Assembly (NCBI GenBank): GCA_027943245.1
Contig: JANDJZ010000181.1
Coordinates: forward strand, 1-64,000
DNA: 64,000 nt
Reading direction: 5' to 3'
Source of the DNA: Acanthamoeba sp. SK_2022b
Lineage: Eukaryota; Discosea; Longamoebia; Acanthamoebidae
Made by a program: the position numbers and the translations under genes. Shown here one piece after another: positions 4,622 to 62,108 of this stretch; positions within the stretch are counted from its first letter, which is position 1; each line of letters starts with the position of its first letter. A model generated the notes under the pieces. It made no database searches and was not told the DNA's origin. It saw only the letters and a program-made list of their open reading frames with translations.

Positions 4622-5340
<719 letters not shown>

Positions 5341-5461
5341 GTGTGTGTACACTGGCTTCAGTGTCCAAGGGGTGGTGCTGGATGGAATCGCACCTGCAGC
5401 AGTCACTCCTGCCCATAAGTGGGGTAGGCCAAGGAAGACAATGGAAATTTCAGCTTCTCCA

Positions 5462-8341
5462 TCAAAGAAGCCTCAAGGCAGTGTCACCTCTGCCTCCACC
5501 ACCACCACCACCACCACCACCTGACCACCACCACCACCACGCAACCACTACCACTGCAGCACAAGCAACACCTTCCTTCACTTCTCTCTCTGCCTTTGCT
5601 TCATGATTGCTGCCACCCACGCTCACAACTGCACCTGCACCAGCAATGCCCAGACCGCAGAGACCGCCTGCACTCCAGTTGCTGCCATCTCCAGCTCCCA
5701 CACCATCATTGCTCCACTGCACCATCTCCTCATCAACCCTCTCCTGCCTCCAGCAGCAACAACCGCAGTACGTGGCTGCAGTCCCCACCATCTCCTCCTC
5801 CACCACCACTGCACACTTGCCACTTCTCCACTGCTATCTCAGATTCACTGCTCTCCTTGGCCTTGGTGTGGATGAGTTGCTTCATACACTTCTTATAGGG
5901 ATGGCCCTTGTAGCAGTCAGCCACAGACTCACAAATCTCTGTTTGCATGACTTTGAAGTGGCCACTTTGGCTAGGACGTTCTGGCCAAGGCAAATGTCCT
6001 TTTAGAGGGACCCAAGTGTTTTCTTGTCCAGCAGGTGGCACTGGGCGGTGTGAGCTTCTTGGTAGGCCTCCATGTAGGCATGAAGCTGTTCCTCCACACT
6101 GTGCCAGTAGTTGGTCAAAATATTCCAGAAGTCCTCTGCAAGAAAGGTGGAGGAGAGTGATAGAATGAACCCAATGCACATTGGGTTGGAAAAACAACAT
6201 TTCATCATGAAGTCAGAATGCATTTGCAAAAAAGCTGTAAAAGTGAACCCAATGCACATTGGGACAAACAGGGTGTGTACTTTTGCTAGTTGCTTCTGAG
6301 CATGTCAAGCGTAATGAGAGTCTTGCTGCTTGGAGCGTCAGTGTTGCACTTGTGGATGGTAAACCAATGCGCATTGGGTCAGGTGTGATACACATAACTA
6401 AAATTCAGCAACCACAGAACCCAATGCGCATCAGGTTCAATAAGGACATATATTGGGAGACCTACTCTATGACGCCAGGATGCTTGGTGAGGCTGTCAAA
6501 CATGGTAAAGTACTTGCTCAGGGTGCCTTCTGCCCTTCTTGCATGCACTGTGAAAATGGATTTGTTAACACTGTTAGAAGCTGTTTCATTCTTAGTGCTA
6601 CATACCAAGAACTCCAAAAGAGCTTTGTAGTTTGTAGGTTGGCCATGTGGTTTGAAGTGAGGCAAGCAGCTGGTCTTGTAGTAGTTGAACGCCTATTCAA
6701 AGGCGTTCAGGATGACTGAGCCGTGCACAATGACGAAGTTTTCAAAACCACAGATTCGGTTGAGAATGAGCCAGTTGAGGTGTCCCTCCACCTCTGAGCG
6801 TACAGTGTAGTAGTTGTCCCACAGCTCACGTCCAACAAGGCGCCAAACCACAACTCAATGGTTACAGTCCAGAGCCTCTGGATGTGATGTGAAATGAGGC
6901 GTGGTTTCAACCCAATGTGCATTGGGGTCAAATCCACACTATTGAGACAAGCACTAACATACTGAATTTGTGAGTCCTCCTGGTTGACCCACTCATCAGC
7001 ATTGAGGAAACATATTATGAAAGGCTTGGTGGTAACAAAGCCGCCCACCAACAGCACCTTGCAATAAATGACAAACTCCTGGCACCATGACACTGCAGTG
7101 ACACTCTGAACCACAACACCGGGTGTTGTAATGATGAGCACATGCCAAGGTTGCAAGTGAACAAAAGCTGTGGCGTACCAAACATGGCGCACTTGCTGAC
7201 CTGCAGGCTGCCTTGGTTGTGTTGACACAGCCATTGGGCGTGGAGCTCTGCAGGGTCAACCTTGGAGAATGTCATGTTGGGGTCGCTCAGGTCAAAAATT
7301 GAAGTATGGATGAATCATGGCACTGATGCACATAGGTGCCATTACAGATTAGTATTATATAACATTGTTGATATATGGCACCAATGTGCATTGGTTTGCT
7401 AAGGGTTCTATCAAATCTAAGAAGATTGGTAGAAATATGTACAACAACACAAATAAACACAATACTTTCTAAAAGTGATATCTGAACCTGATGTGCATTG
7501 GGACTTGGCCATACCTAGCTCTGCATCACTGAGGGTGAGCAGTTGGGATGCTCTTGCATGCTGCTCCATGTGGCCATGGTCAAAAGGCGTCACTTAGGGT
7601 GCAATGTGCTTCATCTGCCTATGTTTCTCCACTGGAACCTCATTGTCAATGATGATGACGTTGTGTTGCCTTCTGGCGGGTGACCCTGGCAACCTCCTCT
7701 TCTTCTTCCTTCTCCTCCTCCGCAGCCTCCTCCTCCACCTCAGCTTGCAGCACTCTCTTCCATTTTAGGGGCTTCACAGGCTTTCATGGCACAGATGGGC
7801 CTGCTTCTGCTGACCCAATGCACATTGGGGCATCTTGGCTTGCCATGCCAAACAGGGTTTCCTCCAGCTTCCATGGCATCAACAGGCTGGCCTGAGCTGA
7901 CCTGATGTGCATCAGGTCATCCTTGCCTGATTCAATAGACAAGGTGTCCTCCTGCATGATGTGCACAGGAGGTTTGTTAGCTGTCTTGATAAGTTGATTT
8001 GTGGATGAACTGATGTGCATTGGTACCTCATCAGACTTCTTTGCATCCTCCTCTCCCTACTCTGCCTCCTTCAGATCAACCTCCATCTCTCCCTTGGCCT
8101 CCCCATCCATGTGCAGCAGCTCCCCTGGTCTGCCTGCTGTGTCTTGTTCTCCCTGGGCTCCCCTGCAGAACTGGACTGATGCACATCAGGTTCACCTAGG
8201 ATTTTGTTGAGCTCTGCATCCAGGTCAACCTCTTTCTCCTCCCTGGCAGTCATTTCCAAGTACTTCTTCAAAGTACACAGGCACTCCTGCTTGGTGTTGT
8301 GTTTGTCAATCATCCACATCTCAACCCCAATGTGCATTGGG
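5462..8341 (-). CDS. Unknown island gene, copy 1 (multi-exon, probably decayed)
   Basis: I do not recognise this gene. Minus-strand exon-like blocks follow one another. First comes an acidic block with KKYLEMTAREEKEVDLD and ELNKILG (about 8.3-8.2 kb). A Glu-rich block follows near 7.7 kb, then FSKVDPAELHAQWLCQHNQ (about 7.25 kb), DEWVNQEDSQIQ (about 7.0 kb), HLNWLILNRICGFENFV (about 6.78 kb) and FWNILTNYWHSVEEQLHAYM (about 6.1 kb). Several junctions have good GT-AG ends, for example GTATGT at about 6.96 kb to ATCCAG at about 6.87 kb. Frame changes and stops remain, so exon borders are approximate. A partial second copy lies at 11.8-12.56 kb. Most of its introns carry the island palindrome. 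Function unknown; it may belong to the mobile elements around it. Confidence 0.4.
5497..5560 (+). repeat. Imperfect CCA triplet repeat
   Basis: CCACCACCA-type triplets, partly broken, at the left part of the island. On the minus strand they would extend a Gly/Trp-rich low-complexity end of the unknown island gene. Confidence 0.8.
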
Positions 8342-8617
8342 TTCTGGTCAAGTTTTCAGGAATATGCAGATCATTTAACAAAGTTTGTTTGCTTTAATTC
8401 ATATTGTGCCCTTTGATTAAACAACGATCTCTTTGCGCACATTGGTTCTGAAACTGATTTTTTAATTGGGCTAACCTGAGCTTAACAAACTCAATTCCAC
8501 CCAATGGCATTTACTCTCTGACTGTTGCTCAATGTTCATTAACAAGCCCAACCATTTCTAAAATTTTCGTGTAGTGAGAGTGCAGTCACCATAAACAAAA
8601 CAATATCCTGAGCTTGC

Positions 8618-9901
8618 ATGAAGAGGAACAACCAGGGGGGAGGCACCACCCAGAAGAAGAAGAAGCAGCGCAAAGCTAAGGAAGTGCCCTGGATGTAAGA
8701 ACACCCACTAGTACAAGCAATAGTGCAATTCTTTAAAGTCATTTTTTTTATAGGTGGGCAGAGAGAGCAGACCATCTCATGGACCATGGCTGGATAGCAG
8801 TCCAAACTCCTCTTCTCAAGCATGTCATAAAGTGTGAGGAACAAGCTGTATGTGTCAACATCCCTCACTCTGTGTCCCCTCACCAGCTCTTTGACCTTCT
8901 TTGGACCCACAAAATTCACACCCACATCCTCATGGCTACAGTCAACCAACTACACAGCTCCACAGCAATGACCATTCTACCTGAGATCAGCAAGTACTGG
9001 GGAATGGTCTGCATCTTTGCAGTCTATGGAGGACACTTGATTCGGCAGTTCTTTGCCACAGGAGACCACTTGATCCAATATCCTGGTTGGCAACATTCTC
9101 TGGGCCAAGCACATTTCCTATTCATCGGCAACCACCTCTCCTACTCCATCCCAACCATCCATCAGCTTCTCCAAGCTTCTTTCTTTCATCATCTACTTCC
9201 TGGCACCCACTTGTGCGTTGATGAGATCTGGGTGAAGTTTAAGAACAGATCTTGTCCAGATCTCAAGTTCAACGAAGGCTGATCAATGGGCCATGGAGTT
9301 CATCTCTCTCCACGACCTGAGTGGCTACCTTCTGGCTTTCACTCCTCCTCACAGCACCAAAACACCATTCAAGGCTCTCATCTCCCTCAGCTGCAAAATC
9401 AGCTCCACAGGACATGTCCACCACATCATTGCTGACACAAGGTTCTCGGCCAAGGCGCTACTTCAGATGGGCCTACTGTGCACTCTTGCATGCCAAAAGG
9501 ACCACCCTCAATATCTCTTCCAACATGGGCTGGGACACACCGAGGTCATGTTGAAGGGCAAGTTTGTCACAGCCACAACAAAAAGCAACAAAGCAGTCAA
9601 CATCATCTCCATGAACTTCACCTTGTCAGAGCAAGCCCAAGCCTCAGCCAAGGAAAGAAGAGCTCTTCTCACACTCTACAATGATACCAAACGTCCAGCT
9701 GACCACTTCCAGCAGCTCTACACAGCCTTCCACATCAATCACCATCATCAACAGTGGGAAGCCAACCTCCTCACTGCTTGGTTCAAGTATGCAGTGACAA
9801 ACACCTACATCATCCACAAACTGATGTCCTCCTCCCCTTTAACACATGAGAAGTTTGTTGAAGACCTGGGGATCTCACTCCTCTCTGCACCACATCAATA
9901 A
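8618..9901 (+). pseudogene. piggyBac-type transposase with one frameshift
   Basis: Exon 1 (8618-8694) encodes a basic N-terminus (QKKKKQRKAK). A 59-nt GT-AG intron (8695-8753) follows, then the main exon from 8754. Features of the DDE_Tnp_1_7 (piggyBac) fold appear in order. They are VDEIWVKFKNRS (first Asp), GYLLAF, IIADTRFSAKALL (second Asp), GKFVTATTKSNKAVNIISM, LYNDTKRPADHFQQLY (third Asp in PAD), and a Trp-rich block with YAVTNTYII. At about 9280 the frame shifts by one base: FNEG is followed by TGA, while another frame continues as ADQWAMEFISL. The rest is open to a TAA at 9901. Cut-and-paste transposase is inferred from the motifs. No terminal inverted repeats were found by eye. Confidence 0.7.
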
Positions 9902-10065
9902 ATGTTGGTGTCTATTTCACCAGAAAATGGTTGGGCCTCAAGGAATCAAAATGGATCAGATCAAAAAGGATATATGATCTTGGTGGAAGATTTCCTGTCC
10001 ACAACTCTGCTGGCCACATGAACACCAGTCCACCACCAACACACACTTGTGGCTAACTTCTTTTT
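9902..10065. other. Spacer between transposase and DUF7869-like copy 1
   Basis: Short AT-richer spacer. I see no gene or repeat in it. Confidence 0.4.
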
Positions 10066-11748
10066 TTGAGATTGTGGGTGACAGACTTCCTGATGGTGAC
10101 ATCCACCCCATTCCCTGTGCCAATCCTCACACTCATCCACTGTTCCCCTTCTTTCTTCTGTGCTATGCTGCAGCACATTCACTCACACTTTTCCTTTGTC
10201 AAGCTTCCTCGCAACTCTAGGCTTGGAAAATGTTCTGCTTGTATAGATTTTGCTCAGCAGCGATTGTGAGCAAGATCACCTGCTGCTGCAGCTGAGCTTC
10301 ATGCACAACGCCAGCAGCATCTCAAGCTCTCTGCTGCTGAGTGTACTGCCTACAAGATCTGGTGTCAGCAGGCCAAGCAACAGCCAAGTTCCCACATGAG
10401 CTCATAATTGACTACTCCAATCCCATCTCCCTGCCTTCTCGCATGCCTGTTCCCAAGTCATGGATGCATTATGGAAACAGGTTCACATACTCATTTGGAG
10501 GACTCATTGATCATCACCAGGGAAGATCTACCTCCATCCTCAATCACAGTGGCCCAAGGATTCCAACCTCACAATCTCCAATCTCTTTTCCCATATCCAT
10601 CATCGTATTCTCACCACTGATCCTTCCACTTGCCCCTCCATCCTCTATCTGCAGGCTGACAACTGTTGGTATGAAAACAAGAATGTGTTCATGCTGGGGT
10701 TCCTATCCTTGCTGGTGGCACTGGAAGAAGTTTATCTCAGCTTCATACCAGTTGGCCACACATTGATCAGCTTTTTCGATTGGACAGATCAAGCTAAAAT
10801 AAGCATCTCTCCACACTCCAGTGTACGCTTCCACCCCTGAATGAATGATGCACTGATGTGCATCGGTTTGTGTCAACTAAAATTCAGACCTGATGTGCAT
10901 TGGTGCTTGTGTATTGATTGTTGTGATGATTGCTCTCAGCCAAATGCAGGCCCTACTAGAACATGCCTATTCTAGGGAAGGCGCCGCTCCAACTTTTCAT
11001 CACATCAACACTGTTTGGGATTGCCAAACAGCCCTCACCTCAACGGACGGCCTTGATGGACACTAAGTTCCACATGTGTTCCACTTCTTCAGGGATGCTG
11101 ACCGTATCTGAGTGTTGAGAAATAAGGCAAATCAGACTGAAGGTGCATGGTCTGAACCTGTAAAGCTACTCAGATCAATTCCCAAAGGTTTACAAACAAT
11201 CTTTTGATCTACCATTTTGTGGGTGAGCTCTCCTCAACAACACCAAAACAGGCGCTCCATACAAAATCCTTGCCCTTACCCTCTGATGTCATTCAAGACC
11301 TACATGACAACTGCCAGGAACCTCCATTCACTGCAGCTGAGCTTGGAGAATGGGCTAATATCTTTGAAATGCATGAAGCAAGCCTGTCATCATCAGACCC
11401 AGTCTGTTATACTATCTCCCCCCACACCCTCAACTTGCTGCGCCACAGGACAGCTCACTCACCCAACTGCAAACTCATGTGTGCCTTGTGCAGAGCAGAA
11501 CTGCACCAACTGTAAAAAACTTCAACTTTGCCCCTGGCCTCTGGGTTGCTGTACACGAAACAACTGATGACTTCTGGATTGGCAAAATCATCTCAGTGCA
11601 GCACTGTTGTTTGCAAGTGCACTGGTGGATCTCCTCCAATGGTAGATGGAAAGATCAGCATGTGCCCCATGGTTCTGTTCTTGCATGTGGTTTTCCATTT
11701 GATGACAAAGCAGGGGTGTCTCAAGATACCCTGACTCTGATCATCTGA
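10066..11748 (+). pseudogene. DUF7869-like island protein, degraded copy 1
   Basis: A degraded paralogue of the gene at 14.6-16.3 kb. Recognisable blocks are RLGKCSACIDF, DYSNPISLPSRMPVPKSWMH, GGLIDHHQG, LQADNCWYENKN, FLSLLVAL and a shortened GHT block. The C-terminal block is NFAPGLWVAVHETTDDFWIG. Introns sit where they do in copy 2: 10821-10939, then one near 11.2 kb. It carries several stops and frame changes (for example near 10267 and 11064) and a deletion in the HTHEDID region, so it is not expected to make a functional protein. Intron 10821-10939 contains two palindromes. Confidence 0.65.
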
Positions 11749-11782
11749 AATTTGTCATTACTCTTCACCTGTGAATAGACCA

Positions 11783-12560
11783 TCATCTGGTGCTCCAGTC
11801 CACATGTACATGTAAAGTACCTTCAATCTTGCCATCATGTACACCATATTTAAAAAGTGACATTGTTACTATTTTCCAAACACTCCAGAATGAACTTTTG
11901 CTAGTTCCTTCTGGAAGCCACTTCAGGTAGTGGGCAAGAAGGTGCTTCATCTGCTCCCTGGTGAGAATTCTAAAGCTACCAGAATTGAGCAGGTCAAGTG
12001 TAATGAGAGTCTTGCCACTCACAGAGCATTGTTGTTGAGCTTGCAGATGTACCTGCATGGTGAACCAATACACATCAGGTCAGGCGTGAGACATAAAAAA
12101 ATCAACAACCACAAACCCTCTGAGGTACGTTGAGAAAGTGGTCAAGGCCCAGGGTGCCCAGCCCTTCTGCATGCACATTCAGAAGTGCAACATACCAAGA
12201 ACTCTGAAAGAGCATTGTAGTTTGTAGCTCAGCCACGTGGTTTGAAGCATGGCAAGCAGCCAGTCGGGTAGTTGAAGGCCTTTTCAAAGGCAACTGAGCC
12301 ATGGGCATTTACAAAGTTTTCAAAACCACAGATACGGTCCTGAATGAGCCAGTTGAGGTGGTGTCCATCCACCTCAGAGTGGGCGGTGTAGTCCCACACC
12401 TCATGGCTGACAAGGCGTCAAACAACAACTCAATGGTTACAGTCCAGGGCCTCTGGATGTGGTGATGTGAAATGAGACCCAATGTGCATCAGGGACAAAT
12501 CCACACTAATGTGACAAGTGCAAACATACCAAATTTGTCCAGGTCCTCCCAGTTGACCAG
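11783..12560 (-). pseudogene. Unknown island gene, partial copy 2
   Basis: A partial duplicate of the unknown island gene at 5.5-8.3 kb. Shared coding blocks are HLNWLIQDRICGFENFV and KTLITLDLLNSG. The introns are also similar, including a palindrome at the same place in two of them (12478 matches 6911, and 12064 matches 6363). Block LTREQMKHLLAHYLKWLPEG is clearer here than in copy 1. It has an in-frame stop near 12.23 kb and lacks both ends of copy 1. Function unknown. Confidence 0.5.
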
Positions 12561-12584
12561 CAAGCATTTTTTATGGTAAAGGTG

Positions 12585-12880
12585 GTGCATGAGCACTGTG
12601 TATGTGTACGCGATGGTAGAGCAGAGAGAAATGGCAAGAAGACCATCACATGCCCACATGACCAGATGGCAGGCTTTTTTGTGGTGACAGAGGTGCGTGA
12701 GCATTGCATTCACATATGCAATGGCATGGCAAGCATAAACCCCAAGAAGGCCATCAGCACCACATGCTCATACAGGACCAGATGGCAGGTTGTGACGTGT
12801 GGTGAAGAGGAGCTGCATGAACACTGCACATGTGGACACTATGGTTGCAAGTAAGCGTGTGTGTGGTGAAGGAGGTGCAC
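12585..12880 (+). repeat. Imperfect tandem repeat with Cys-rich reading frame
   Basis: Units begin at 12585, 12693, 12813 and 12875 (spacing 108, 120 and 62 bases), each opening with a GTGCRTGARCAYTGC-like start. The plus frame 12573-12854 reads as repeated EHC, then a Gly, then KK.I...C segments. It may be a small Cys-rich protein or just a non-coding minisatellite; no family is recognised. Confidence 0.6.
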
Positions 12881-13183
12881 TGGCAAAACCTTGATGCCAT
12901 GCCATCAATGAAGCAGCTCTCACCTGCATATGCATGACAGTGCAGCATCAAGAGGTGAAGGAGATGAAGAAAGAGAGCCATTGTGTTCTGTGTGCAAGCA
13001 GCAGCAGCATTTGGGTAGACAGCTGTCATGTTTCTTCAAGGTGCCACTGACAGTCACCAGTAACCAGCCACCATGCTGCAGAATTCATGAAATCTTGATG
13101 CTCATCACTGAGTAAGGGTGATGGGGACTGGATGACTGACCTTGTTGACTGCTTCTAACTAGACATCACTACTGAAACCACCA

Positions 13184-14650
13184 TTACTGCTGTGACCTCC
13201 ACAGTAGTGCACCAATGCACATTGGTTTGCTAAGGTGAGAAGTAGTGGGAGTGGGATAAACATAAGGAGTGAGGAGAGGGTGCTGTAAGTCATTGAAGTA
13301 TGTGGTGATCTGCTGTAGTGCTGCATCATCAACAGACCGAGCAAGGAAGTGCATGGCCCAAGTTGAAAAATCCTTTGCTGGATATTCGTGGGTCAGGGGC
13401 TTGTGTGTGAAGGGCAGAAGGTACCAGTAGCTCTGGGTGAGGGCGGTGGGAAGCATCATGCTGAAGGTAGGATGAGCATCGTAGATGGTGTGGATGTGCT
13501 CTTCGGGGAGGTCTGGGAGGGTAATGCTGGTGGCAAGGTAGTGATAGAAGGATGAGTGGATGAGCACCTTGTTCTCCACAAGGATGTTGAGGCTGGCAGG
13601 AATGGCTCGAGAGTCTTCCCTGGTGACCGGTGGAAGAGGGATGTGGGAGAGGTAGCATGTTGGAGCAGAGAAGGGGGCAGGGGATGTCTCGCTGTCGGCG
13701 ATGGGCTTCCAGATGGTGGAGAAAGGGCAGTTTGCATGGGTGAAGAGGAGGACGAAGAATCCACTGGTGTGGGGAGGGGCTGGTTCGTCAGAGGAGTAGG
13801 CAATCTTGGTGAAGTAGCAGGTGATTGTAGTGCGGTAGACCAGCTGGGAGTGGGAGTCAAGCTCGTTGATGGTGTTGGCGAGGTGCTGAGCACTGCTGGT
13901 GAGATAGATGCCGATTCCGAAGTCCTTAGAAAGACAGCTAGCCGCATTGTCAAGGTCAAGAGTGACATCACCTGTCGAGATGCCAAGGTCATGGATGTAG
14001 ATGGAGACCTGAGGGAGGAGGGAGGTGTGGTTGGTGAGTTGAAGTTACTTCCAGCATTTCTGTGTTATTATATTATATGATCTGACGCGTGTCGGATTGG
14101 CAAGGTGTACAATATCAAGAGAGCATACCGGTTGCTTTTCGATCTCCAAGCGGGACTTTACCATCCGGGATACCACTTGCTGCAGATTCATGCTGTGTGT
14201 CTCAGCTCTCTTTGTGATTGCTCGCTTGGCAGCCTTTTTCTTTTCAAGCGCTTCAGCTTTCTCAGCTTCAGTCAGCTTGGAGGTCGTAGCCTTGGAAGGC
14301 CCTGAAAGGTGCAGGAGGTGTGGCTTAGATCAGAAAAAGTTGAATGACTTGGAGAGGAATAGGGTACCTGTTGTCGTAGTAGGCATAGGTGGAGTTGGAA
14401 TTGGGGGCAGCTCTGTGGTAGTTTTGGTTGGAGAGGGAGGTTGGACTCGGAGTGGGGGTGAGAAGATCTCTTGGCTTTGAGTCTGCTCCAACTCCTCTTG
14501 CGCTTCTTCACCCAGGTGTTCAGGAGTTGAAGGAATGAACTCCTGTAATGGGCAGAGTTACAATCATTATCAGTGAGCAAATAACTCATTGATGTAATAA
14601 GTGGGTCACTTACCTGTGATAGTGGGGTGTATCCACCCTCTCCTGCACCT
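13184..14650 (-). CDS. Unknown island gene X, copy 1
   Basis: Unrecognised protein. The model from the 5' end is: an exon ending GEGGYTPLSQ near 14620; an exon with TPEHLGEEAQEELEQTQ and a Pro/Thr-rich stretch (about 14543-14367); a basic coiled-coil-like exon (LTEAEKAEALEKKKAAKRA, about 14302-14129); and a long exon from about 14003. The long exon holds VSIYIHDLGISTGDVTLDLD, DFGIGIYLTSSAQHL, FFVLLFTHANCPFSTIW and LPDLPEEHIHTIYDAHP. Splice sites are good GT-AG pairs and frame holds over about 270 residues in the last exon, which argues for a real gene. A palindrome at 13211 lies near the 3' end. It is arranged head to head with DUF7869-like copy 2, and first exons may overlap around 14.6-14.8 kb. 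A fragment of a second copy is at 19.6 kb. Confidence 0.5.
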
Positions 14651-16295
14651 GTGGATATGCTCTGGCTGGCTTGTCTCAGAGCTCTTACAGGTAGCTCTTC
14701 CCCATGCACCCAGGTTGGGCAAGTGTACCACCTGTCTTGAATTTCAACAACTTCGTCTGCGTGCCAAGTCCACCTTGGAGGCTGAGGAGTATCATGCACG
14801 CCGGGCTGCTCACCTCAACTTAGCTGCATCTGAGCGACTTGCCTACAAGCGTCGAGCACACCTTGCCAGATCATGCCCCAGCCAGTTCAAGAGCCTTATC
14901 TTTGACTATTCAAATCCCATCCCCCTCCCCTCTCACCACCCCCTTCCCAAGAGTTGGATGCACTTTTCTCACCGCTACACTCTCTGTTTAGGTGGCCTGA
15001 TTGATCATGCTACTGGCAAGCACTTGTTCCACCACCCCCAGTTTGCTTGGCCAAAGGACTCCAACCTCATCATCACCACCCTGTTTAACCACCTGTCTAA
15101 CCACCTGGGTGCTTATGCCCCTGGCACTCCCCGACCTGACACACTCTATCTACAGGCTGACAACTGCTACGCTGAGAACAAAAACAGCTATGTCTTTGCT
15201 TTCCTGAGTGTGCTAACTGCTCTTGATATTTTTAAGGATATCTACTTCAGCTTCCTCATTGTTGGCCATACCCATGAGGACATTGATCAGCTCTTCTCTA
15301 CTGTTCAAACCAAGTTCCGAGCAACAAGCATTCACACACCACGGTGTGTTTCCTGCTCTGAGTTGCTGCCCTCTATGCCTGATGATATGGAGACTCACCC
15401 CTTACCAACACCTCCTTCACAAACAGCCAACTTGAAACCTTCCTACGCTCAGCTTACTCTGAGGAAGGTCCACTGCCCAAGTTCAGTGCCCTGGAACAGG
15501 TTTGGGATTGGAAATCATGGCTCTCCAACCACATGCATGGACTCTCTGGCCATGCTTCCCTTCATGTGTTCCATTTCTATAAGAATGCTGATGGCCACCC
15601 AGAGATGCAGGATAAGCCTTACCACTCCCAAGGTGAATGGTCTACACCTTACCAGCTCCTGAGCTCACTGCCCATTGGTACTGCTGCCTCCTCTGCCATT
15701 AGGGTCCCCTTTTATTGCACCTCCTCATTCCCTTCTTACCTTCCCCACAGGTGTACCATGGACTCTTCCACCACAGGCTCCTGATGATGAGGTCACATCA
15801 GAGCTGTTCTCCCATTGCTCTGAGCCACTCTTCACCTCCACTGAGCTTGCTGAGTGGAAGGAACTCATTGCCCAGCACAAAACCAGTGCTCAGGACACAC
15901 CCCATGCCATTCCCACCCTCTTTGATTCACTCACACCTCACACCTCTGCTGCTCAGATGACTGATAATGGGATCACTTGCTTTCAGACCCGTGTGCAAGT
16001 CTCTCAACGTCGACATCCACAGGATGCTCAGCACTTCACCTTCACCCCTGGCCTTTGGGTGGCCATTCGACCAAGTGAAGAGGAAACAATGGAGCAGTTC
16101 TGGATTGCCAAGATTACCAAGGTCAGCCGCACTCTTATCACTGTCAACTGGTGGCAACACCACAGGGATGTTTGGCAGGATCATGGCACCAGTAGCTCTG
16201 TATCCATGAATACTGTCCTTGCCTGTGGGTTCAACTTTGATCCAGAGAGAGGTGTTGACCCTGACACTCTCAAGAAAATATATGCCCACCTCTAG
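14601..16295 (+). CDS. DUF7869-like, RNase H-fold-looking island protein, copy 2
   Basis: The best-preserved copy. Coding probably begins at or before 14690, then runs through introns 15344-15428 and 15678-15750 to a TAG near 16293. Blocks in order are RLGKCTTCLEFQQ (a CxxC site), DYSNPIPLPSHHPLPKSWMH, GGLIDHATGK, LYLQADNCYAENKNSYVF, LIVGHTHEDIDQLF and FTPGLWVAIRP with FWIAKI, an SH3/chromo-like end. The DNC..NKN and GHTHEDID signature matches DUF7869 as I remember it, a family common in eukaryotic mobile elements. The conserved Asp residues suggest a DDE-type nuclease, but this is inference. It is more CpG-rich and less decayed than copy 1, so probably younger. Confidence 0.6.
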
Positions 16296-18000
16296 CTCTT
16301 CTTTCTCATCTCCTATCCCCACCAAAAGGTCTTTTTTTGGTCCATTTTGATAGTGCTGTACATTTTTCTATCCATTTGTGTCTCCAAAACTGTACATGCT
16401 CACAAAGACTTAGTGAAAAAGGGTCACTGTCCCCTTTTCATGAACACCAGGTTTTGTGTTCTATCCAACTTAAGTTTCAATGCTGGTGTGCAGACACCTA
16501 CAGCATGGTGCTCACAACAAATCCCATTGAGATGGGTGGGCTGATTTCACTGCTCACACATGAGCACAGCCAGTAGCAACTTCTACAAATGGTCACACAC
16601 TTTACCAAATGTGCGCTCCAAGACAGAAGGAGGAGTTCAACATAATGGTATGTTGTCTTCACATACACATACACATTGATATTGTCACCTTCATGTTGTT
16701 TTCTTTTATGTCTGCACCTATGTCTCCATCACATACACATACACAACCAACCAATGTTCTAATTTTCCATCACTACACATAGTGTTCCCTCCAGCACTCC
16801 ATCATCTTCATCAGTCAAGCAAACAAGTTCTACACTTTCAACACCAACTGTGACCTTAGTCAAGAACCTCCAAACTGCAGGCCTATGAGAAAAACAGTGC
16901 CATCAAGAAGTGGAGCCCCTCATGGACACCTCTTGTTCCTCAAGGCATTCAACCAAGTACCACTTATATTCTCATTTACTAATCTATGTGAGGGAGCAGG
17001 TTACCACTTCTACAAGTACCTTCGGCAGGCCTATACAACTCCATTTTCCCTGAAAAGCAGTACTCAACTACCATCCACTTCATGGAACTCTGAAAAGCAC
17101 AAGAAGCACCAGAAGAACAGCAGCAAGAAGGGAGAAGCACAGCAGCAAGAAGGGAGAGGACTCCTTCCCCTTTAAGGGACAAGGGTGCTAGGGGAAGCAA
17201 GTCCCAAAAGCGCCATTCAACTTCCTTATCCTCCTCTTCCTACAAGCACCAAGATATAGGAGGATCTGTTCAACAAAGAAGAGCCTGAGGGAGTTGAGGA
17301 CTTGGACCACAATGTTTAACTTGCACCTGGAAAAAAAACAGACTTTAGTAAGGTTCCTGATGCTGCAGATACATCAACAATTGTCCAGGTGGTGTGTGGG
17401 TGAGTTGTTAGTGTCATATCTTTCTGTTTGTCTGTTGTGGAGAGGGTTAACAGAGCCATTTTGCTGTGGGATTGGGTAAGGCGGGGTTTTCTGTTAGACT
17501 GATGGAAGGGCCTGGCTTGCTTTGGCTTAGAGAGCATGCTGGACTACAACCACACACATCTGCCAACAACCATCCACATAACCCTTCCCCCTACATCCTC
17601 ATCCACAAGATTGACAGGAGCAACATCAAGGAAGCAACAACTAAGGCCAAACTACTCGCCTACACATCAAGGAGAGCCTCTTTGAGAGATCTCTCACCAG
17701 ACTAAAAGAAGTGTAAAATGGTGACAGTGAGATTGGAGAGGGACCACTGGAGGTAACCAAGCAAGAGACCACTGCACTCAGGCTCCACTTCAAACTAGAC
17801 CAACTACCAGCAGTGCAGGCCCACAGAATCATGCCTGGCATGCATGGCACAATGCTGGTGGCTGCTGGTAAGAATGGTTGCGTATCAACTCAGTGAAACT
17901 CAGTTTCCAGTGTGGTCAATGGTGGTGTTTTCTGTGGGTATGTTGGAGATGGTTATGCAATTTTAGGGAAGTTTTCTGTGGGGGGCTGTGCAGGTTTTTT
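16296..18000. other. CpG-poor island spacer without a supported gene
   Basis: About 1.7 kb with very few CpG. Open frames such as 16885-17175 and 17294-17479 are short and lack recognisable motifs. I see no palindrome copy here. It may be decayed element sequence. Confidence 0.5.
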
Positions 18001-18009
18001 GGAGTTGGG

Positions 18010-18432
18010 TGTAGGTTTCTTTGGGGATGTTTGGTTTGATGAGGAAGGCTTGTCCACCTTGTGGGTCAGCTGGGACATTGAGGGACATTACGAAGTTGGA
18101 GAGGGTGAGCTTCTTCTTAAGAGCGAGTGTGTTGAGGATCTGGAGGGCGAGGTGGTTGGGCAGTGTGTACTTGTCAAACGCGGGGCAAAGTATAGGTCCA
18201 TTTCCTGTTCAGGTGTGATATTGTGTAGTAACCCATCCAGGGTTTTTTTTGTTTTTCTGTGTTTTTTTTCGTCTAGTTGTGCTTGTTTAGGTGAGTTGAA
18301 TATGATCGTGTTAGTGAGGTTGTAGTGGAGTGTGTTGTGAGTAGAGTGGTGAGGTTGTTTGTTTTTCACAACTCCTGTTTCCTGGAGTGAAGCCTCAAAA
18401 GATTTGGAGAATCTTGGATGCCAAGTGCACAC
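18010..18432 (-). pseudogene. Unknown coding remnant
   Basis: Minus-strand blocks YTLPNHLALQILNTLALKKK and PADPQGGQAFLIKP, plus NSPKQAQLDEKKHRKTKK with LDGLLHNITPEQEMDLY upstream, look like former coding sequence. They are joined by a frame change near 18.19 kb. No family recognised. Confidence 0.3.
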
Positions 18433-18585
18433 ACATGAAAATTTACATTATTTATTGTGTATTAGCACGTTTTATTTGTTGTGGCCTGCTCTTGCTGTGT
18501 GCACACACATGCATGCACACACATGCATACACAATGTCAGCAACACCATGGCCACACAAACAAAAGGTGCAGAAGGCACATACCA

Positions 18586-18933
18586 CTAGGACGTGTGCAT
18601 GGTGGAGATGTGGTTAGCAAGCCTGCCTTGGTACACATAGCTCTGCCCACAGTGCAGGCACTGAAGACGAGGCCAATCTATGGACTGGTGGCAACACATG
18701 TGGTTAGCAGATGGCAGCATTGAATAGAGCATGTGCGTACCTGTCTGAACACTTGCTTGTGGATATCGTGGCTGGAGCGTGGCTGTGTTGGAGTGGCTGA
18801 TGGCAAGGAAGATGATGGCGATGGTGATGACAACACAGATGATGATGATGACAATGGCAATGGCAATGGTGATGGCGATGGCGATGGTGGAAATGAAGGA
18901 GAGGGTGTGGTGAAGTATGGGGGTAGGGGCCAA
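18586..18933 (-). CDS. Small protein with one C2H2 zinc finger, doubtful
   Basis: The end of this minus-strand frame holds CLHCGQSYVYQGRLANHIST followed by MH, with C-x2-C-x12-H-x4-(H) spacing typical of a C2H2 zinc finger. The first part is a low-complexity Ile/Ala-rich stretch from a GAT-type repeat (about 18800-18900), so the true start may be further in. Possibly a remnant of an element-encoded DNA-binding protein. Confidence 0.35.
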   Translation of the reverse strand: MAPTPILHHTLSFISTIAIAITIAIAIVIIIICVVITIAIIFLAISHSNTATLQPRYPQASVQTGTHMLYSMLPSANHMCCHQSIDWPRLQCLHCGQSYVYQGRLANHISTMHTS

Positions 18934-18949
18934 AGCTGCAGAGGTTGCT

Positions 18950-19936
18950 GATTCTACAACCCCTTCTTCTCAGTGCAGATGTCTTCTGCCTCTGTCTTCT
19001 TGGGCTACCTCTGTACTTGCTCTTTCTTTATGTTGCTTTCTTCAGTTATGTTGTCTGACCTTCATCTTCATTCAGGGCACCTCACCTGTTTCTTCCCAAC
19101 TCTCTGCTTGGGTCAAGGGTAAGGAGAAGGCCACTGAAACTGCCCCAGGAACTCCAACAAGTAAAGGTACTGTCCTTTGGTGATTGTTTTTTTTTTTTTT
19201 TTGAACCTTAATGATTATACTATTCAGGAACCTTGTGCTACAACTCCTGAGTCCACAAGTCTCCAAACAGTCATAAGATGAAGGCAGATGCAGCTTGGCT
19301 TTCCAAGTTTGCCCCTTCTTTTTCAGAGCAGTATTGCCTTCATTGCGCTCAGACACAGTTTCATGATATTCCAGTATGTCTTCCTCCACCATTTTGTTGC
19401 CTTATAGCTGCCAGCTTGTGTGTGCCAACATGTATCTTGTTTTTGAACTGATGCACATTGGTTTTTTTTGGGACAGATGTGCATTGGTTTTTTTGGGACT
19501 GATGCGCATTGGGTTTTCAGGACTGATGTGCATTGGGTTTTCTTTGCTCCATGCATCACCTCTTCCATCCCAATGCGCATTGGGATTTTTACTCATTCAT
19601 TTTTTTGCTAACAGGTGACCATCTACCTCCACAATTGTGATTTACACTGGTGACTTGGAGCTCAATGTCAATGATGCTGCTGAGTGCCTCGACTTGAACC
19701 ATGGCACTGGTTTCTACATCACCTCTTCGCCTGAACATCTTGCTAGAGCCATCAACAATCTTTTGTCTGGGTCCACTTCCCTCCTACTCTTCCATGTCAT
19801 CCACTTCCACTACTCTCCCATCCTCTACACCAATACCATCTCCTCCCCTAGGATTATTTTCAGACTGATGGTCATGGCTGGTTTTCAGTCTGGCTTGAGT
19901 AAGTTCATCACCACTCAGAATAAAAGTTATGCTTGA
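18950..19936 (+). pseudogene. Island gene X, fragment of copy 2
   Basis: The block from 19616 (VTIYLHN, then after a one-step frame change IYTGDLELNVNDAAECLD, GTGFYITSSPEHLARAINNL) is clearly homologous to gene X at 14.0 kb. Downstream it diverges and stops at 19936. An upstream exon-like piece (GTSPVSSQLSAWVKGKEKAT, about 19075-19165) may belong to it. The frame break and early stop suggest a remnant. Confidence 0.45.
19448..19584. repeat. Cluster of five palindromes in an intron of gene X copy 2
   Basis: Five palindromes at about 19447, 19473, 19498, 19522 and 19569, spaced 26, 25, 24 and 47 bases apart and separated by T-rich spacers (for example GGTTTTTTTTGGGAC). The block sits just upstream of a 3' splice site (GCTAACAG) at about 19615, which precedes the gene X block VTIYLHN. 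It looks like local amplification of a unit of about 25 bases. Confidence 0.85.
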
Positions 19937-20705
19937 TCTTCCTTGTCTTGATGCTTGTACTGTGCTTATACTGGTGGGGTTATGGACAGGGAGAGGAGGC
20001 TGTCACATCATTCAGGTGGGTGTTGGTGCCTGCATGTGCTGCAAAGACAAACACATTCTTACAGCGCAAGATGAGTTTTGATTGAAGGTACACATAGTTT
20101 ACATTGACGGTCCCGTCAAGAGTGTTGGAGTATGGGGCTCAGTTGCCAGAAGATGACGAGGAAGAAGACGAGGAAGAAGACGAAGGGCTAAGCAGAGTCT
20201 CGGCTCGGCGCAGGCTAAGAGCAGACACGTTAACACGCTTACCTCGCGCCGTGCTGAAGCCTAACTCGAACCGAGCACTGCCCACCTCGCTTGCGCCCCT
20301 TGTTGTGTTGTTGTCGTCTTCATCCTGAGCTACACGTGCCTGGCGAGAAAATCAGCACGACTTTCTATCCGAGCTGGGGAGGAGCATGTACTCGTTTGCC
20401 GAAGGAGAGGTTGGAAGGAGTGCTTAGGTGATCGAAATTCGTGCTGCACATCGCCCTGTGCGATCGCTTATCACGCCCTTGTTCGAGCGGCTGGATACAA
20501 CATTCAATTTTATTAAGTGCGCGACGAGGAAACAGAGCAAGCTATGCATCGTACCGGGACGATTTCCATCAGGTTGTTGTCAACGCGTAGAGCGTAATTG
20601 TGAGCCATTTTTAAAAGCGACATTAGAATTCTAGGCACAATTCTTGGAACTAGAATTCAATCAATTCTTCTTAATATCAAGAATTGGGCTCGAAAAAACA
20701 AAATT
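19937..20705. other. Right edge of the island and downstream flank of the PLD gene
   Basis: CpG returns abruptly near 20.1 kb. The frame at 20104-20328 is dominated by a GAGGAAGA repeat and is not convincing. At 20662-20686 an 8-bp inverted repeat (CAATTCTT / AAGAATTG, 9-base loop) lies just beyond the stop of the leftward PLD gene and may be part of its 3' end. Confidence 0.4.
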
Positions 20706-61021: not shown

Positions 61022-62108
61022 ACCAATGTTCCTATTTGCCAAAGTGGAACCAGGCCTGGCAGCTTTTTCTTCTGGGACAGAGGCAGTAAATTGGGCTATG
61101 AAATCAGCAATGTGCATGCAAGCCCATAATGTGCCACATTCACACAATTCACAGAAACACTAACAATGTGCTTGATGGTTGGCCTCTCCTGATGCATGAT
61201 ATTCTCATCTCTCTTGTCACCCAAGCCCTGGTGTTCAGAAAACGAGCTGCTGGAGTCGTAACGTATTGGGTAGCGCTCGCGCTGAGGTGCTGTTGCCCTA
61301 CTAGAACAAGGATTGTTGTGGAGAGTGGGTGTAACGCTACAAAGGCCCATGTGGCGTCCAACCCTCCACCCCAAAGTGTCCTGACGAAGTGAGTCCCTCG
61401 AGGCGAGCGTGCTACGCAGCCTGGGAATGCGGGGACAATGTAACAAATGACTTTTGTGCACTTTTAACACACAAACTGTATAAAAACACACTTATGCCTG
61501 GCCTCAAAAAATAAAAAAAGAAGCTTAAAAGTCTATCCCCATTCCCTGGACCTTAGTTCAAATTGAAGTTGTGGCAGAATGTCTCAGAGGAACCCTTGCC
61601 TGGGTCTTCTCAACAGAGTGTTTGGAAAAAAGTAACAATGACTCTTTTGACTACTCAGCACATCACCAACACACACATAGATAGAAGAGCTGTTGGTGGC
61701 AGGCAGGTATCATATAATTGATACCATATGCTCATGCAGAGTATCCTTGAGAGTGGTGGATCAGGTGGAGCAGGAACAAGGGGACAGGGCCATCATGGAA
61801 TCATCACCATGAGCTCTTCACCCTTAAGGGTGATAAGAATCCAGCCATGTCTTGAATGGCCAACATTACACAGGTGACCCACCAGCACAAAAGAGATGGT
61901 GAAAAACAGAAGATATGGTTGTGCACCAGCCAGCAACAGTAAACCAGCCAATGCAAAGATCAAGCTGCAGACACATGGTACTTTTCCAAAATAACTCCCT
62001 TAGGGATAAATAAGGCATTTAGATTTATGTCCAGCTGGTATGTGTCCTCCAGAGTGGCAGAGAGAGCATGAGCATGAGGAAGAGGGAGGCAGAGCAAAAC
62101 GGGGGAAA
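61022..62108. other. CpG-poor block left of the 5S gene
   Basis: About 1.1 kb with no supported gene. From about 61.5 kb to the 5S gene I count no CpG at all, in contrast to the flanking genes. It may be decayed mobile DNA. No copy of the island palindrome is present. Confidence 0.5.

Follow-up and report, generated by a model that had tools for sequence, protein, structure and literature searches.

We analysed a 16-bp palindrome that recurs in the first 64,000 nucleotides of contig JANDJZ010000181.1 of Acanthamoeba sp. SK_2022b (this whole stretch is hereafter called the window). Our results suggest, with moderate confidence, that the palindrome is the recognition site of a symmetric DNA-binding protein of an old clan of cut-and-paste transposons with terminal inverted repeats (TIRs), of which a protein of the DUF7869 family is the likely transposase. 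The copies stand in arrays inside TIR elements, within DNA that has lost most of its CpG dinucleotides.

In the window, 21 matches to CCYRATGYRCATYRGG with at most two mismatches were found, all within 6170..19584, against a mean of 0.76 and a maximum of 4 in 100 dinucleotide shuffles of the same DNA. With a further copy at 19473, these make up the 22 copies that a sequence-only reading had aligned earlier, and our by-eye recount gave exactly its dinucleotide table: CA in 12, TG in 9 and AG in 1 at the left; CG in 4, CA in 7 and TG in 11 at the centre; and TG in 16, CA in 5 and CG in 1 at the right. The core, described there as almost unchanged, was also nearly constant in our hands, with ATA in one of the 22 copies, at 12064. 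A 23rd copy, at 7322, has AG as its right dinucleotide. The palindromes and the features that hold them are as follows.

5831..20150, no strand: CpG-depleted island, delimited by the CpG observed/expected ratio (o/e) of 2-kb bins, with approximate edges; it contains every pattern-matched palindrome of the window.
5831..8500, minus strand: Array B, a decayed transposon gene region with 13 palindromes (6170, 6248, 6363, 6420, 6911, 7322, 7380, 7487, 7814, 7901, 8009, 8175 and 8326), some within putative introns and some where the DNA may be coding, from pattern matches and paralogue alignment.
10341..11748, plus strand: decayed DUF7869 gene, copy 1 (PF25273, E 7.4e-21 for 10511-10840; genome profile match 10541-10762).
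10823..10949, plus strand: putative GT-AG intron of 127 bp in DUF7869 copy 1, read from the sequence, with palindromes at 10852 and 10889, 37 bp apart.
11857..11884, minus strand: TIR that deviates from the pattern at 3 positions and points inward, with DUF7869 copy 1 ahead of it.
11891..13226, no strand: second B-type segment, with palindromes at 12064 and 12478; a palindrome at 13211 stands at the end of the open reading frame (ORF) 13184-14044 (minus strand).
14601..15662, plus strand: DUF7869 copy 2, an ORF of 353 amino acids and likely transposase (PF25273, E 5.1e-37).
18951..19851, plus strand: Array C in a probable intron, with palindromes at 19447, 19473, 19498, 19522 and 19569, just upstream of the open frame at 19619.

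Array B has paralogues at C188, C24, C240, C94 and C306 and, by coordinates only, at C372 and C316. Its sites at 7814, 7901 and 8009 fall within a single minus-strand open frame of 90 codons, where they encode forms of P/L-M-x-I; those at 8175 and 8326 fall in another frame of 94 codons, in which the word at 8175 has another phase, and others fall in putative introns. Because the word would be used in different coding phases as well as in introns and in a miniature inverted-repeat transposable element that has no gene (MITE, described below), we infer that it would act, if at all, at the DNA level.

The genome was searched over 44.95 Mb in 1129 contigs. The strict form of the palindrome has 63 copies there. 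The wider form MCYRATGYRCATYRGK, in which position 1 may be A or C and position 16 may be G or T, has 259, and the reversed control gave no match in either case. Positional tests used a list of 228 of these 259 copies (31 are lacking from it), and local context (flanks and CpG o/e) was examined for 77 exact copies, a minority of the 259. The sequence-only reading had taken CA and TG for the two products of CpG deamination and suggested a genome-wide tabulation of the dinucleotides; when this was run, CA, TG and CG dominated and other dinucleotides were rare, as a CpG origin demands. When the left dinucleotide was allowed to vary freely, with CA at the centre and TG at the right, 91 of 97 genome copies had CA, TG or CG and none had TA (CA 49, TG 38, CG 4, AG 3, CT 1, AA 1 and AC 1). 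With the centre unrestricted (TG at left and right), 132 copies were counted, and a by-eye tally of the 100 listed among them gave CA, TG or CG in 91, TA in 3 and another dinucleotide in 6. The rarity of TA argues for a CpG origin, because roughly one copy in four should carry TA if the site merely tolerated any pyrimidine–purine step.

Comparison of paralogues pointed in the same direction. In 376 ungapped pairs, which are not independent of one another (65 gapped pairs and 93 ascertained partners were excluded), palindrome dinucleotides that were CA or TG in both copies were discordant in 339 of 876 cases, compared with 207 of 3631 for flank dinucleotides, and another 171 palindrome comparisons paired CG with CA or TG. 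Such discordance points to CpG, since the passage from CA to TG needs two changes unless both derive from CG. A stricter set of 122 pairs, in which the partner was not an exact site, showed 26, 15 and 40 CA/TG swaps at the three CpG positions and 4 and 11 at the internal controls (TG at positions 6-7 and CA at 10-11); it is weaker than the larger set, with 46 of its 122 centre cells scored as 'other', and agrees with it in direction. Local CpG o/e was at most 0.41 for 76 of the 77 exact copies, the exception being a copy at C215 with 0.70. The pattern typical of CpG decay, with CpG lost, CA and TG gained and TA rare, is therefore present, and the evidence supports the conclusion, on sequence grounds, that the three variable dinucleotides of the palindrome were formerly CpG.

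The loss of CpG extends over the whole island. Between 6 and 20 kb of the window, all 2-kb bins had a CpG o/e of 0.09-0.26; the 4-6 kb bin, in which there is a long TG repeat, had 0.47, and the remaining bins ranged over 0.68-1.10. The retained fraction, CG/(CG+CA+TG), was determined in 148 low-CpG bins of the window and the examined loci with the palindromes masked, and it depended on the neighbouring bases: retention was highest of 16 contexts in GCGC (65 of 710, 9.2%), and it was 1.8% in CCGA and 1.9% in TCGG. This dependence probably means that, in this organism, methylation or deamination is sensitive to sequence context. The palindromes themselves retain the central CpG, which stands in GCGC, in 11 of 77 copies and the outer CpGs in 5 of 154, matching the prediction from context; we considered whether the central CpG had been protected or specially methylated, and the better retention of GCGC makes such an assumption unnecessary. 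Decay thus appears to be island-wide, with no sign of a site-specific component. Of the earlier proposal that either the site or the island had been methylated, the second part agrees with the island-wide decay and the first is not supported, the sites obeying the context rules of the island. Between GCGC (9.2%) and CCGG (0.9%), retention differs roughly tenfold.

Cytosine methylation in this organism is plausible because its genome has a DNMT1-like gene. A profile search gave 11 matches to PF00145 in the genome, and for the exon at C265 all 25 of the 25 listed matches are chains named DNMT1 (best E 2e-8). Strong PF00145 matches in long open frames at C152, C44 and C231 may represent bacterial contigs or extra methyltransferases. 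In A. castellanii, CpG methylation is enriched on long interspersed nuclear elements and long terminal repeat elements, mainly young ones, and on viral genes (PMC12344493, PMC12210455), a pattern that may bear on the present genome by analogy only. Protein matches were also sought for two host exons: one gave 11 matches, none of them named as eukaryotic, and a myosin exon had its best match in a myosin IE heavy chain, which is that of an amoebozoan.

The 77 examined copies fall by single linkage into ten flank-homology groups, of 31, 30, 3, 3, 3, 3, 1, 1, 1 and 1 members. The group of 30 consists mostly of family A, an element of ~790 bp (C172:9544-10338) with 32-bp TIRs at 91%, whose copies have common ends and up to three site positions per element. 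With at least 43 matches to one part, a short length, matching TIRs and no gene, family A has the anatomy of a non-autonomous TIR element (MITE); by-eye inspection of its ends for a target-site duplication was ambiguous. The TIR reads ACAGAGTGTTCAGAAAAAAGTAACAATG, starts otherwise than CACTA and was matched 103 times in the genome with at most three mismatches (control 0). Within 500 bp of the 100 TIRs listed of these 103, 42 of the 228 palindromes lie toward the interior of the element and 6 beyond its end, against 0.25 expected in each direction; counted by TIR, 34 of the 100 have a palindrome inside and 5 outside at the same distance. The large flank group includes a longer element, in which B and C segments adjoin (C188 and C262), and at C372 there are 14 listed sites at 9279-12351, ~1 kb inside an inward-facing TIR. 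At C188:46864-50418, the B and C segments are present twice in opposite orientation about a centre at ~48.5 kb, with palindrome arrays on both arms.

The likely transposase of this clan belongs to DUF7869, a family that is named in no paper found by our literature search. A profile search with PF25273 detected 93 fragments in the genome, and named relatives come from lancelets, molluscs, corals, Vitrella and Acanthamoeba castellanii. Alignment of 26 sequences showed D187 and D227 to be invariant and D102 nearly so, and N188 and the stretch GHTHEDIDQ are likewise invariant or nearly invariant; these conserved residues seem to resemble a DDE-type active site. An inward-facing TIR lies within 2 kb downstream of 8 of the 93 fragments (6 loci), with 0.21 expected; an upstream inward-facing TIR was found at 3 fragments and an outward-facing one at none. 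Some palindromes are also close to the gene, with 11 of 228 within 200 bp of a DUF7869 fragment (0.26 expected), and pairs spaced by 37 bp stand at the same DUF7869 profile position at five loci, namely the window and four others.

The palindrome might instead be the site of a host transcription or silencing factor, captured by the transposons or used by the host to find them, which we consider unlikely. Any sequence-specific dimer would fit the half-site symmetry described below, and the present data are equal in this respect for a host and a transposon protein. However, host targets would be expected in normal DNA too, whereas all copies of the window lie inside the island, and the low local CpG o/e of all examined copies except that at C215 is that of transposon-like DNA.

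That the word has no function, and was carried by segmental and tandem duplication within one repeat family before it decayed, is a distinctly improbable explanation. It is helped by the concentration of 61 of the 77 copies in two flank groups and by the roughly neutral decay of the present copies, but it does not readily explain why the same symmetric 16 bp occurs in ten groups whose flanks have no detectable homology, or why it recurs in putative introns, the MITE and open frames. Non-CpG positions of the palindrome differ between paralogues in 118 of 3008 comparisons (3.9%) compared with 10.9% in flanks, from which no selection is claimed: intact query copies had been chosen, a fair neutral expectation would be about half the flank value (5.5%), and some of the partner copies were also ascertained as intact.

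Recognition by a symmetric protein is consistent with the behaviour of the outer positions of the word. The sequence-only reading had explained all variants by CpG decay, which holds for the three dinucleotides and fails for position 1 (A/C) and position 16 (G/T). In 12 of its 22 window copies, the outermost pair deviates from the proposed ancestor by non-CpG changes, with A at position 1 in 11 and T at position 16 in 7. Among 191 genome copies, 86 start with A and 105 with C at position 1, whereas at position 16 there are 99 with T and 92 with G. The states at the two ends are independent of each other (Fisher p 0.47), all four combinations of the outer pair having about the same frequency. 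The proposed descent from a single perfect CCCGATGCGCATCGGG is not supported, in view of these variable outer pairs and of the absence of the exact string among the 37 CG-centred copies of the genome, in which the sole copy with three CpGs is CCCGATGCGCATCGGT at C622:9073. Just outside the palindrome, A occupies position 0 in 60% of copies and a purine occupies position -1 in 93% (weighted by flank group), and the word seems better described as RAMCCGATGC facing itself than as one fixed ancestor.

The inner halves gave a similar picture. Left and right CA/TG states were independent (180 copies, p 0.36), and with CA at the centre the left was CA in 108 of 180 (p 0.009), a mild same-strand excess that simple independent decay does not predict and that shared descent may explain; the p values are rough since the copies share descent, and the tests omitted 6 copies with a non-CpG left dinucleotide and 5 unlisted copies. 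Independent outer positions suit a protein that reads half-sites better than they suit base pairing, whether in RNA or in a cruciform. The earlier suggestion of a symmetric site used by a dimeric or transposon protein thus gains support from the arrays inside TIR elements and from the independent halves, with the binder itself putative. A hairpin in transcripts, serving splicing, termination or editing, is in our estimate very improbable: the word is self-complementary and several copies lie in putative introns, but its halves vary independently, and outer pairs that cannot pair in the standard way (A..G and C..T) are present in 101 of the 191 copies. We therefore disfavoured the hairpin, noting that the left/right test is weak against it when taken alone, because decay followed function and the copies share descent.

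We attach still less weight to the idea that the word is a minute mobile element in its own right, with repeated insertions into transposons behind its many copies. The Rickettsia palindromic elements are small palindromes that insert many times in this manner. Ten flank groups without detectable mutual homology, the occurrence in open frames and a 22-bp presence/absence difference against C24 would all accord with mobility. Clean absence of the palindrome from an aligned paralogue (2 of 451 cases) even exceeds that of control 16-mers (24 of 19952), with both cases falling on one C24 segment; yet these are the only 2 of the 451, no target-site duplication is visible and the remaining copies are common to paralogues. 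The rarity of clean presence/absence disfavours mobility and, together with the ten flank groups, suggests that the word was built into the element.

Remains of an endogenous giant virus, with the palindrome as its promoter motif, are scarcely credible: methylated viral insertions are reported in Acanthamoeba (PMC12210455, PMC12344493) and medusavirus, a parasite of amoebae, has a palindromic early promoter-like motif repeated near its genes (PMC8557863), but that motif differs in sequence, lies ~40-70 bp upstream of viral start codons and stands outside transposons, and the island has the anatomy of TIRs and transposases. In viral contigs, which were searched with the three-CpG 14-mer and with CCCAATGCGCATTGGG (7 stretches for the latter), more than one palindrome copy was present in none of the 127 loci among the matches listed, 120 of which come from a search with at least that many matches. 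For DUF7869, 28 stretches in viral contigs matched the pattern and none was confirmed. The 13 island ORFs that were scanned included no viral Pfam family; PHROGs, also consulted, covers viruses of bacteria and archaea only.

Several observations weigh against a transposon-borne reader of the palindrome with DUF7869 as transposase. DUF7869 copy 2 in the window is without a palindrome; 173 of the 228 palindromes lie more than 5 kb from any detected DUF7869 fragment, a listed TIR stands downstream at just 6 DUF7869 loci, and only 8 of 47 fragments starting or ending near profile residue 126 (six loci) have a site there. A search of DUF7869 against the Protein Data Bank gave no significant match (best E 0.042). 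Among 39 family A copies found via a site-free flank, a listed site was present at at least 25 of 117 expected positions, a lower bound obtained with a 60-bp tolerance, and this retention seems roughly that expected of neutral decay, with no sign of selection in the present copies. Some sites lie in possible coding sequence, unlike the described targets of the plant transposon proteins TNPA and VANC. In A. castellanii, DNA transposons as a class showed no methylation enrichment, though some insertions are highly methylated (PMC12344493).

Arrays of protein targets spread through a whole transposon have, to our knowledge, been described in few systems, chiefly in plants, and one of these offers the protein VANC of VANDAL elements for comparison. 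VANDALs are Mutator-like elements. In Arabidopsis, VANC targets are found in the introns of VANDAL elements, between genes and in the terminal regions, frequently in tandem modules, and the system resembles the present one in that a short motif occurs many times in the non-coding parts of one transposon family whose elements are subject to DNA methylation (PMC5735166). Here the motif is repeated inside TIR elements and in a putative intron, and some copies may be coding. In contrast to our palindrome, the VANC21 motif YAGTATTAY is without CpG, and the word 'palindrome' is absent from that paper (PMC5735166). The elements also differ, having DUF7869 proteins and other TIRs here, and no VANA or VANC was found in 13 scanned ORFs of the island, in which PF25273 was the only Pfam match over the cut-off and PF13843 was just under it.

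In CACTA (En/Spm) elements, a short motif is likewise repeated in arrays, to which the element's own DNA-binding protein TNPA binds; those arrays are subterminal, and methylation of the GC-rich part has been suggested to hinder binding (PMC2613891). The arrays here differ in extending to putative introns and gene regions, and the TIR is of another kind. Membership of the VANDAL or CACTA family is unsupported by TIR and gene content, while a similar mode of working could apply. Beyond transposons, HIP1 of cyanobacteria is also a dense CpG-containing palindrome, parts of which are recognized by methyltransferases, but it is a feature of cyanobacterial genomes, whereas the present word, which is in decay, was found in a single transposon clan (PMC4390886). 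Literature searches returned, for the string GATGCGCATC, only papers that look unrelated by their titles and abstract starts, and, for a TIR transposon with CpG palindrome binding sites and methylation, nothing describing such a system in titles or abstract starts.

On the reading that we favour, the transposon would have carried many sites, spaced from 24 bp to a few hundred bp within elements, in its short gene-less derivatives, putative introns and possibly coding sequence, and a putative protein bound along its length would label the element as self, to be transposed, expressed or spared from silencing. Once inserted, the elements would be methylated at CpG by the host, and deamination would convert each CpG to CA or TG by chance, so that the sites would now be dead relics. 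More specifically, the arrays might be bound by an anti-silencing protein that the transposon encodes and that is sensitive to methylation, so that an unrelated element would have its own equivalent of VANC; this is a tentative proposal with a limited chance of being right. With three CpGs per site, host methylation would first block and then mutationally erase the site, making silencing irreversible. If true, this would be a mutational ratchet whose steps could be read directly in the copies. Arrays of protein targets in this clan would give the DUF7869 family a candidate role. The three-CpG design would offer a testable link of methylation, binding and mutation, with the copies recording how silencing destroys the control sites of an element.

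A candidate for the binding protein may lie among the neighbouring genes. ORFs 13184-14044 (minus strand) and 19619-19936 (plus strand) are two copies of one unnamed protein family, with 20 of 40 residues identical in a single comparison (E 2e-11) and no Pfam match over the cut-off. This family may be a second gene of the transposon clan. A further feature of the island is the following.

8737..9901, plus strand: transposase relic in two frames, matching PF13843 (DDE_Tnp_1_7) at 21.8 and 18.3 bits (cut-off 22.4), which we take to be piggyBac-like.

This relic lies inside the island beside a DUF7869 copy, and a protein search with its second half gave no relatives above threshold. A TG dinucleotide repeat of 273 bp (5076-5348) adjoins the edge of the island, and several shorter TG/CA repeats are present elsewhere in the window. 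An isolated copy of the TIR at 61613-61640 (plus strand, 2 of 28 positions mismatched) lies outside the island, in a bin with a CpG o/e of 0.68 and with no palindrome found nearby, and is probably the remnant of another insertion.

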